A DNA stretch of 64,000 bases from the NCBI RefSeq assembly GCF_040580765.1, contig NZ_CP158687.1, forward strand, positions 3,162,001 through 3,226,000, written 5' to 3'. Within the stretch, counting starts at the first letter, position 1. Each line of letters begins with the position of its first letter. Position numbers and translations under genes: made by a program. Below the pieces are notes generated by a model. The model was not told the DNA's origin and made no database searches. It worked only from the letters and a program-made list of their open reading frames with translations. This document shows, in pieces, positions 41,108 through 43,799 of the stretch. The DNA comes from Lentibacter algarum (GTDB lineage Bacteria; Pseudomonadota; Alphaproteobacteria; Rhodobacterales; Rhodobacteraceae).

Positions 41108-41896
41108 TTAGATATCAAACGTGGCGAAGACTGGCGCGTGATCCGAGGGCTGGGTCCAGCCGCGGGCGGCGCGCAGTACGCGGGAGGAATGAGCGGCGCT
41201 TGAGATGTCGGGGGTGGCCCAGACGTGATCAAGGCGGCGGCCTTTGTCGGCGTCGTCCCAGTCTTTGGCGCGGTAGGACCACCACGAATAGAGCAGACCC
41301 TCAGGGAGATCCTGACGGGTGATGTCGACCCATTTGCCTGCGTCTTGCGTCTGCGCGAGGGCTTCGACTTCGATGGGGGTGTGGGAGACGACTTTGAGGA
41401 GTTTCTTGTGGTCCCAGACGTCGTCTTCGCGGGGGGCGATGTTGAGATCGCCCACGAGGATCGATTTTTGAGGGGCTGCGGCATGGAACGCGTCGCGCAT
41501 CTCGGTGAGGTAGTCGAGCTTTTGGCCGAACTTCTCGTTCACTTCGCGGTCGGCGACATCGCCGCCAGCGGGGACGTAGAAGTTATGAACTGTGACGCCG
41601 TTGTCTAGCTTGCCCGCGATATGGCGGGCGTGGCCGAGGCTTGCGTAATCTTCGGCGCCCGCTTCGACCATGGGGATTTTGGAGAGGATCGCGACGCCGT
41701 TGTAGCCCTTCTGGCCGCGTGCGACCATGTGGGTATAGCCGAGCGCTTTGAAGCCATCGAGGGGGATTTTATCAACAGGGCTTTTGCACTCTTGCAGACA
41801 GAGAACATCGGGGGCTTCTTCAGAGAGCAGCTTGAGCACCAGAGGTTCGCGCAGGCGCACGGAGTTGATGTTCCAAGTGGCGAGTGTGAATGACAT
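41108..41896 (-). CDS. xthA: exodeoxyribonuclease III
   Basis: 262-aa AP endonuclease/exonuclease of the EEP fold. WNINSVRLR at the N-terminus, LQECK with the metal-binding Glu near residue 35, YNGVAIL near 65, GDLNIAPRE near 150 and the C-terminal catalytic SDHAPV are all present. An AGGAG site precedes the ATG. Confidence 0.94.
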   Translation of the reverse strand: MSFTLATWNINSVRLREPLVLKLLSEEAPDVLCLQECKSPVDKIPLDGFKALGYTHMVARGQKGYNGVAILSKIPMVEAGAEDYASLGHARHIAGKLDNGVTVHNFYVPAGGDVADREVNEKFGQKLDYLTEMRDAFHAAAPQKSILVGDLNIAPREDDVWDHKKLLKVVSHTPIEVEALAQTQDAGKWVDITRQDLPEGLLYSWWSYRAKDWDDADKGRRLDHVWATPDISSAAHSSRVLRAARGWTQPSDHAPVFATFDI

Positions 41897-41998
41897 GTGG
41901 TGCTCCTGACTGAAAGAGCCTTTGATCTAACACAACATGCATGGGCAGGGAATCGACTATTGCTTGTGATGCTTCGCAGAATAGACAGGAATACACTT

Positions 41999-42706
41999 AT
42001 GGCTAAAGGACCGCCCGCACATCCCGAAATGCGGCATTATGTAAACAGGAGTGGCTGGCTGCGTGCGGCTGTTTTGGGGGCGAATGACGGGATTGTCTCC
42101 ACTTCGGCGTTGATTGTCGGAGTGGCTGCAGCGGAGCCTGAAGTGAAGACAGTGTTTTTGGCGGGCTTTGCGGGGCTGGTGGCTGGGGCGATGTCGATGT
42201 CGGCGGGCGAGTATGTTTCGGTGTCGTCGCAATCAGATATCGAAAAGGCTGATATTGCGCGTGAAATCAAGTCTCTAGAGCAAAACCCCGAGACCGAAAT
42301 CAACGAGCTTGTTCAAATTTATGAAGAGCGCGGGCTTTCGGAGGGGACGGCGCGGACTGTTGCGCTGGAGCTGACCGAGCATGACGCGTTGGGCGCGCAT
42401 GTGCGGGATGAGCTGGGCTTGTCAGAGGTGCTTTCGGCGCGGCCCTTTGAGGCGGCTTTGGCTTCGGGAATGACCTTTTCTGTTGCGGCGGCTGTGCCTC
42501 TTGTGGCGGCCGTGCTTGCGCCAGCAGGTTCTATTATAACAGTGGTGCTGGCTGTGACGGTGCTTGCTCTTATTGTTTTGGGCGCACTGGGGGCCTATGC
42601 GGGCGGCGCTCCAAAGGGGCCAGCCATGCTGCGGGTTGTGGTCTGGGGTATATTTGCCATGGCTGTGAGCGCGTTATTGGGGCGGCTTTTTGGGGTGGTT
42701 GTTTAG
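41999..42706 (+). CDS. VIT1/CCC1-family metal transporter
   Basis: 235-aa membrane protein with GANDGIVSTSALIVGVAAA in helix 1 (near residue 23), AGAMSMSAGEYVSVSSQ in helix 2 and three C-terminal helices. The charged stretch between helices 2 and 3 (about 85-150, Glu-rich) resembles the metal-binding domain of VIT1. Family members move Fe2+ or Mn2+ out of the cytosol. Start at 41999 (MAKGPPAHPEM) with AGGAAT upstream. Confidence 0.87.
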   Translation: MAKGPPAHPEMRHYVNRSGWLRAAVLGANDGIVSTSALIVGVAAAEPEVKTVFLAGFAGLVAGAMSMSAGEYVSVSSQSDIEKADIAREIKSLEQNPETEINELVQIYEERGLSEGTARTVALELTEHDALGAHVRDELGLSEVLSARPFEAALASGMTFSVAAAVPLVAAVLAPAGSIITVVLAVTVLALIVLGALGAYAGGAPKGPAMLRVVVWGIFAMAVSALLGRLFGVVV

Positions 42707-42974: not shown

Positions 42975-43003
42975 CAAAAAAAGGCCGAGCGCGGGGCTCG
43001 GCC
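42975..43003 (-). terminator. intrinsic terminator of predicted small RNA
   Basis: Perfect 8-bp stem GGCCGAGC/GCTCGGCC with a 5-nt loop. On the minus strand it is followed by a run of seven U, then GUUU: a textbook Rho-independent terminator. Confidence 0.88.
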
Positions 43004-43051
43004 AAAGTCCAACAGGGAGGTGCATATGATAGACCGCATATGCGACGGTAT
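42975..43051 (-). ncRNA. predicted FNR-controlled small RNA, about 77 nt
   Basis: Delimited by a predicted start near 43051 and the terminator at 42975-43003. The RNA would hold a 5' hairpin (GCATATG/CATATGC, 8-nt loop), an unpaired stretch with ACCUCCCU, which is complementary to Shine-Dalgarno sequences, and the terminator stem. A -10-like TACAAG (43063-43058) lies exactly 22 nt after a perfect FNR box, the spacing of class II FNR promoters. No such RNA is known to me at this locus. Confidence 0.6.
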
Positions 43052-43085
43052 ACTTAACTTGTATTGGCAACTTTGAGATGCATCT

Positions 43086-43099
43086 TTGATGCAGATCAA
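43086..43099 (-). promoter_or_regulatory. FNR/FnrL box
   Basis: TTGATGCAGATCAA, a full match to TTGAT-N4-ATCAA. It lies 13 nt past the response-regulator stop codon. Its centre is 41.5 nt from the predicted start of the minus-strand small RNA, so it should activate under low oxygen. Confidence 0.75.
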
Positions 43100-43112: not shown

Positions 43113-43799
43113 TCAAGCGACGAGGCGGTAGCCTCCTGACTCAGTGACCAGAAGCCTTGCATTGGAGGGGTCTGGCTCGATTTTCTGGCGCAGGCGGTAG
43201 ATGTGTGTCTCTAGCGTATGGGTTGTAACCCCTGCGTTGTAGCCCCAGACCTCGTGAAGCAGCACATCGCGCGCGACGACGCCGTCTGTGGAGCGATAGA
43301 GGAACTTGAGGATGTTTGTTTCTTTCTCGGTTAGGCGAATCTTTTTCTCATCTTCAGTGATCAGCATCTTCATTGAGGGCTTGAAGGTATATGGCCCGAG
43401 CGTGAACACCGCGTCTTCGCTTTGCTCATGCTGGCGCAGCTGGGCACGGATACGCGCAAGCAGGACCGGAAACTTGAACGGTTTGGTGACGTAATCATTG
43501 GCGCCCGCATCTAGACCGAGAATTGTGTCAGCGTCGCTATCGTGGCCTGTGAGCATAAGCACAGGCGCTTTGACACCTTGTTTGCGCATCAGGCGGCAGA
43601 GTTCGCGGCCGTCGGTGTCGGGGAGGCCGACATCGAGGATGATCAGATCATAGAGGCCTTCTTTGGTCTTTTGCATGGCAGTTGCGCCGCTGTCGGCCTC
43701 GAAGACATCAAAGTCTTCGGTCATGACAAGTTGTTCACTCAACGCTTCGCGCAGGTCATCATCATCGTCGACGAGCAGGATTTTTCTGAGTTGCGCCAT
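43113..43799 (-). CDS. cenR: OmpR-family response regulator, CenR-like
   Basis: 228-aa two-domain regulator. The receiver has acidic DDDDD at residues 11-15, phospho-acceptor Asp in LIILDVGLPD near 56 and the switch Lys in YVTKPFKF near 107. The winged-helix DNA-binding domain spans about 130-226 (VTTHTLETHIYRLRQKIE). The stretch QHEQSEDAVFTLGPYTFKP matches my memory of alphaproteobacterial CenR, an envelope regulator; the name is a best guess. No kinase gene is adjacent. Confidence 0.75.
   Translation of the reverse strand: MAQLRKILLVDDDDDLREALSEQLVMTEDFDVFEADSGATAMQKTKEGLYDLIILDVGLPDTDGRELCRLMRKQGVKAPVLMLTGHDSDADTILGLDAGANDYVTKPFKFPVLLARIRAQLRQHEQSEDAVFTLGPYTFKPSMKMLITEDEKKIRLTEKETNILKFLYRSTDGVVARDVLLHEVWGYNAGVTTHTLETHIYRLRQKIEPDPSNARLLVTESGGYRLVA

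Follow-up and report, generated by a model that had tools for sequence, protein, structure and literature searches.

A probable FnrL-type promoter, conserved in the cenR 3′ untranslated region, suggests a second origin for the small RNA SorX

Introduction

In Lentibacter algarum, a perfect match to the binding site of the oxygen sensor FNR lies between the end of a response regulator gene and a small RNA. The locus raises the question of how this RNA is made: is it only released from the messenger of the gene that precedes it, or is it also transcribed from a promoter of its own that answers to oxygen? We have analysed the window (the whole stretch of 64 kb of DNA containing the locus) and compared it with related genomes.

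The closest known RNA is the trans-acting SorX, formerly RSs2461, of Rhodobacter sphaeroides. In the published accounts it is cut from the transcript of RSP_0847 by an unidentified nuclease and RNase E, it is described as lacking a promoter of its own and as being co-transcribed from an RpoHI/II promoter, and it is bound by Hfq and acts on potA. RSP_0847 is named ompR-1 in the SorX papers and CenR in a cell-envelope paper, the text of which does not mention SorX. A ChIP-seq study of R. sphaeroides FnrL reported sites in the putative promoter regions of RSs0019 and RSs2461; its authors stated that a regulatory influence could not be established, as both RNAs were absent from their array. In the open-licence literature searched, "SorX" and "CenR" as whole words never occur together in one paper, and neither a conserved promoter of fixed geometry nor a link of such a promoter to the cenR 3′ untranslated region (3′UTR) origin of SorX was found. 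Binding of FnrL at SorX is already in print for R. sphaeroides.

Results

The small RNA and its host gene

The RNA, which the initial annotation had presented as undescribed, is SorX. It matches the covariance model of Rfam family RF02784 over its full length (model positions 1–73 of 73) with 74.1 bits against a gathering score of 46.6 (E 2.7e-16), which rules out the earlier description. The features of the locus are as follows.

43113..43799, minus strand: cenR (ompR-1), response regulator gene with the box and SorX in its 3′UTR (open reading frame; 88% identity to the R. sphaeroides gene)
43086..43099, no strand assigned: FNR-type box, TTGATCTGCATCAA in minus-strand reading, 10/10 to palindromic TTGAT-N4-ATCAA (motif scan)
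43058..43063, minus strand: −10-like element TACAAG, 22 nt past the box, 4/6 to TATAAT
43051, minus strand: predicted FnrL-dependent transcription start, from the geometry (box centre 41.5 bp upstream)
42977..43050, minus strand: SorX small RNA (RF02784 match)
43022..43043, minus strand: SorX 5′ hairpin, 7 bp, GCATATG/CATATGC (SorX model alignment and fold)
43006..43021, minus strand: conserved SorX core ACCTCCCTGTTGGACT, probably the region that pairs with targets (letters kept across the SorX alignment)
42976..43003, minus strand: intrinsic terminator, 8-bp stem at 42983–43003 and seven T at 42976–42982 (scan and SorX model alignment)
41108–41896, minus strand: exodeoxyribonuclease III gene

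The case for the RNA rests on its match to the covariance model; the fold signal over shuffles is modest (z −2.06, with 8 of 200 shuffles equally good). The hairpin and the terminator with its seven U lie where they had been placed, and the stretch ACCTCCCT occupies 43021–43014 between them. The letters of ACCUCCCU, taken as unpaired in the initial annotation, are also there, but the minimum-energy fold of SorX pairs part of the core. By consensus scan, the window has 7 terminators against 7.2 in shuffles, i.e., no excess.

Matches of the window to SorY, the Betaproteobacteria toxic sRNA, SraC/RyeA and suhB are all below the gathering scores. SorY (RF02651) has the CCUCCCUGUUGGACUU core and the terminator in common with the window RNA, but the latter reaches just 36.7 bits with the SorY model, far under its gathering score of 111. 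A second SorX-type RNA is present in the same genome (L002, G000:C1:1368596-1368671, minus strand), scoring 48.5 bits, just over the cut-off. It shares the core and the terminator with the window SorX, has no FNR box better than 7/10 within 300 nt before its core, and is possibly the counterpart of SorY.

The adjoining gene had been called CenR-like, and this naming is sound: it is 88% identical to RSP_0847, the gene named CenR that precedes SorX in R. sphaeroides (L189). SorX begins 62 nt after its stop codon on the same strand, i.e., in the cenR/ompR-1 3′UTR, and cenR lies within 520 nt upstream of SorX in 142 of 145 related loci, taken from the best-scoring SorX matches. On the other side, a 269-residue open reading frame with no NCBIfam match (41897–42706, plus strand) separates SorX from the exodeoxyribonuclease III gene; in R. 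sphaeroides, a reading frame that resembles it by eye directly follows SorX.

The putative promoter in the window

The box at 43086–43099 is the only perfect FNR box in the 64-kb window, and TACAAG begins exactly 22 nt past it; both had been pointed out in the initial annotation and both are confirmed. Boxes with at most one mismatch number five in the window against 1.74 expected, a count reached by 6 of 100 shuffles. The genome contains 26 TTGAYN4RTCAA palindromes, against 4 for the reversed pattern, and the consensus scan of the window finds neither an excess of terminators nor a sigma-70-type promoter at the site; a perfect box in one window is therefore weak evidence alone, and its strength comes from comparison across loci. 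The predicted start, 43051, and the 5′ end of the SorX family match, 43050, are adjacent bases, and in R. sphaeroides this 5′ end is made by RNase E; a 5′ end mapped here would therefore fit promoter and processing alike.

The genome encodes the expected regulator. A search for Crp-type helix-turn-helix domains gave nine matches, of which four are over the cut-off and one spans the whole domain; the protein with the whole domain is the FnrL equivalog (456.5 bits, cut-off 300). A search for cNMP-binding domains returned FnrL, one other protein over the cut-off and one weak match. The other protein is a second Crp/Fnr-like protein, encoded by a reading frame of 209 residues (L349, 1360–1989; cNMP-binding domain, 56.9 bits), which has neither the N-terminal cysteine cluster of FnrL nor a full HTH_Crp_2 match. 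One of the weaker helix-turn-helix matches (L116) looks like an Lrp-like regulator by eye.

Perfect FNR boxes also flank the fnrL neighbourhood (L113, 406–419 and 2226–2239). One lies 18 nt before fnrL; the other is identical to the SorX box in all 14 letters and precedes a reading frame of 279 residues by 90 nt.

Conservation of the box

For the comparison, 149 genomes were taken by best SorX match from the 315 with a match, one locus per genome. Leaving out G269, G217, G383 and G340 gave 145 SorX loci, and dropping L225, L247 and L276, which have no CenR match in the stretch, gave 142 cenR-SorX loci; the set was chosen by covariance-model score, independently of the box, and weaker SorX loci are not represented in it. 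The box was sought between the end of cenR and the SorX core, which was anchored by its first 14 letters, and counts were compared with 100 dinucleotide shuffles and with five control motifs.

A box of at least 8/10 precedes SorX in 67 of these 142 loci from the best 149 of 315 genomes (shuffles: mean 5.4, maximum 12), one of at least 9/10 in 52 (mean 0.4, maximum 2), and a perfect one in 13 (mean 0.03, maximum 1). The control motifs occur in 0–7, 0–2 and 0 of the loci at the same thresholds. A second set was chosen by CenR similarity and its organisms may overlap the main set; it comprises 80 loci, of which the 61 with a SorX core were counted and the 19 without one were not. Here, 24 of 61 have a box of at least 8/10 (shuffles: mean 2.7, maximum 6) and 18 one of at least 9/10 (mean 0.25, maximum 2). 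The strict pattern TTGAN6TCAA, followed after 35–65 nt by ACCTCCCTGTTGGA, occurs in 48 of 394 family genomes, with 0 for the reversed pattern among the matches listed; some of the 48 (e.g., G349 and G084) look like chance boxes.

In the genus of the window, all six genomes examined keep a box of 8–10/10 and a hexamer starting with TA at exactly +22; a seventh (G004) gave no SorX locus. The remaining 75 of the 142 loci retain cenR and SorX without an 8/10 box. The box is thus shared by about half of the relatives compared. The initial annotation had named homologous loci that keep the regulator but not the box and terminator as evidence against its reading; this counts against it in the lineages of these 75 loci, but not in the lineage of the window.

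The history of the box was followed on a tree of CenR DNA with 141 rows, one of the 142 sequences being too short. The presence of the box is clustered on this tree (34 changes against a shuffled mean of about 45; none of 500 shuffles is as low), but it is also scattered, with at least eight changes forced by well-supported branches. As only 16 of the 138 inner branches are well supported, no origin of the box can be named.

Spacing between box and −10 element

By sequence comparison, the spacing is the strongest point for a promoter. In the boxed loci of the main set (best 149 of 315 genomes), TA begins exactly 22 nt past the box in 49 of 67 and at 21–23 nt in 61 of 67, while the distance from the box to the SorX core varies from 35 to 95 nt. 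The relation holds in loci with a box-to-core distance of 60–67 nt (TA at 21–23 in 38 of 39; control offsets at most 13) and of 68–100 nt (21 of 23; at most 7), and is seen in only two of the five loci at 35–44 nt (at most 1). Among the 62 loci with a distance of at least 60 nt, the informative columns are both half-sites, an AG past the box, T at position 23 and A at position 24; most bases between the box and the −10 element carry little information. The TA keeps its place relative to the box while the distance to the core varies. The box is therefore coupled to a −10 element rather than to the RNA, which is what a class II FNR promoter demands.

When the box and the −10 element were combined in a leave-one-out profile and scored on the 142 loci (best 149 of 315 genomes), 64 exceeded the 1% null and 61 the 0.1% null; the window scores 16.5, and the R. 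sphaeroides locus 5.1, barely over the 1% threshold of 4.4. The window itself has a 10/10 palindromic box, a −10 element at +22 that is weak at 4/6, a box centre at −41.5, and FnrL encoded in the same genome. The class II geometry proposed by the initial annotation is upheld by the conserved spacing, and FnrL binding by the reported R. sphaeroides ChIP-seq site; activation itself is a prediction.

In the short-distance loci, FnrL-dependent transcripts would start at the core. L073 and L074 have the box 37–38 nt from the core and lack the stretch for the 5′ hairpin; L073 keeps TAGATT at +22, while L074 has no TA there. Three further loci (L236, L263 and L275) have a box overlapping the cenR stop codon, 35–36 nt from the core.

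Comparison with the R. sphaeroides locus

In the R. sphaeroides 2.4.1 genome (G089), SorX was recovered at 2,598,225, against 2,598,224 as printed, and a SorY match is also present. SorX there resembles that of the window in being a full-length member of the same RNA family, behind the same host gene cenR/ompR-1 on the same strand, with a box, a TATAAA beginning exactly 22 nt past it, and the reported FnrL ChIP-seq site. The two differ in detail. The window has a perfect box downstream of the stop codon, and the start expected from it falls at the mature 5′ end, whereas the R. sphaeroides box (TTGCGTGAGATCAA, 8/10, G089:C4:2598148-2598161, L189) overlaps the cenR stop codon, with 28 nt more between predicted start and mature SorX. 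The start predicted from this box, at about 2,598,196, is around 14 nt off the published pre-SorX 5′ end at 2,598,182.

In several other loci, too, the box starts 4 nt before the cenR stop codon ends. As the R. sphaeroides box contains the stop codon and similar overlaps occur elsewhere, stop codon and operator share letters.

Candidate targets

Pairing of SorX with GGGAGG-containing ribosome sites is plausible, and the target evidence is thin. The search for core-complementary ribosome sites suggested by the initial annotation gave no enrichment in this genome: the near-complement CCAACAGGGAGG, with at most one mismatch, is found 11 times and the control 9 times; two of the 11 are SorX-type genes. 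In R. sphaeroides, it occurs at 18 places against 8 for the control. Such places lie 3–15 nt before the start codon of a reading frame of at least 60 residues in 1 of 11 cases here and in 7 of 18 in R. sphaeroides. The complement of the SorX core in the window (43011–43028, plus strand) reads AACAGGGAGGTGCATATG and resembles a ribosome site before a start codon; this likeness is probably a mere mirror of the pairing motif.

The genome has four potA-like genes above the family cut-off. Two of their leaders were usable, and 55 of 300 and 99 of 300 shuffles pair with SorX as well as they do; among four R. sphaeroides potA leaders, one (L332) stands out, with 5 of 300 shuffles as good. The first pairing test covered 19 loci with crude start calling, giving no start in L329, L335 and L337 and a plainly internal one in L331; the second covered the 8 genes over the potA cut-off, of which L329 and L335 gave no open frame under the filter. 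The control L347 is in neither test.

Discussion

We consider it likely that SorX is made in two ways: by processing of the cenR transcript, and from a class II FnrL promoter of its own in the stretch that separates the cenR stop codon from SorX. Judged by the comparative evidence, the promoter is real. At low oxygen, FnrL carrying its Fe-S cluster would bind at 43086–43099, centred 41.5 bp before the start, and recruit RNA polymerase to the −10 element at 43063–43058. The primary transcript would be about 75 nt long, starting near 43051 and ending at the terminator. Processing of the cenR mRNA, as described for R. sphaeroides, would yield SorX as well, and the inputs of SorX would then be the promoter before cenR and, via FnrL, oxygen. 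From either source, it would pair through its ACCUCCCUGUUGGA stretch with the ribosome-site regions of target mRNAs.

Parts of this scheme have precedents. The E. coli small RNA FnrS is not known to derive from a 3′UTR. It is reported to be directly under FNR and to repress its targets without oxygen, and to have no sequence similarity to RSs2461. PcrZ of R. sphaeroides is, like SorX in our proposal, a small RNA under FnrL; as published, it differs in having its own promoter and other targets.

It is unlikely that SorX arises from processing of the cenR mRNA alone, with the box a chance match or a relict. This is the published biogenesis in R. sphaeroides; the predicted start in the window is adjacent to the processed 5′ end of the family, and over half of the main set lacks an 8/10 box. 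Further points weigh against the two-source reading itself: the start predicted in R. sphaeroides misses the published 5′ end by the 14 nt or so given above, the profile score of that locus barely exceeds the 1% null, the −10 element of the window is weak, only two of the five short-distance loci have the TA at 21–23 nt, and the genome encodes a second Crp/Fnr-like protein. Against processing alone, the box and the TA at +22 are kept together far above shuffles, with little information in the spacer and a varying distance to SorX, and the six genomes of the genus retain both. The FnrL ChIP-seq site reported for R. sphaeroides also speaks against it.

We regard it as quite improbable that the box serves a regulator other than FnrL in some lineages (e.g., a Dnr-type regulator in denitrifiers), or that it acts here as a repressor site or a roadblock to read-through from cenR. 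D. shibae is reported to have one FnrL and three Dnr regulators that act on similar sites, and CrpK of R. sphaeroides to bind an FnrL-like motif. The 209-residue Crp/Fnr-like protein is a candidate in the present genome, but the absence of the cysteine cluster and of a full HTH_Crp_2 match speaks against it. The repressor reading is opposed by the position of the box, as −41.5 with a −10 element at +22 is an activating geometry for FNR.

That the first half of the box is instead the −35 element of an RpoHI/II-type promoter (CTTGAT ... CATCT), with an incidental likeness to FNR, is hardly credible: the window letters fit by eye what we take to be a sigma-32-like pattern, but both half-sites and the TA at +22 are conserved and a C precedes the box in only 24 of 62 loci. 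SorX has been counted in the RpoHI/II regulon of R. sphaeroides, which is the published point in favour.

Returning to two sources for SorX, we tentatively suggest, as a possibility about which we are somewhat doubtful, that SorX anticipates oxygen and has two independent origins. The FnrL transcript made at low oxygen would be almost ready-made and would bypass RNase E, so that the response to singlet oxygen and polyamines might be pre-loaded before oxygen returns; in some lineages (L073 and L074), it may lack the 5′ hairpin and begin with the pairing core. A small RNA derived from a 3′UTR would then have remained, or become, an autonomous gene across the family.

A conserved FnrL promoter in the cenR 3′UTR, if confirmed, would make SorX a dual-origin RNA and link the response to photo-oxidative stress with oxygen sensing by FnrL. 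It would account for the FnrL ChIP-seq site in R. sphaeroides, to which that study could assign no regulatory effect. It would also join two literatures, that of SorX and that of cenR, which have run apart though SorX sits in the 3′UTR of the gene now named cenR.
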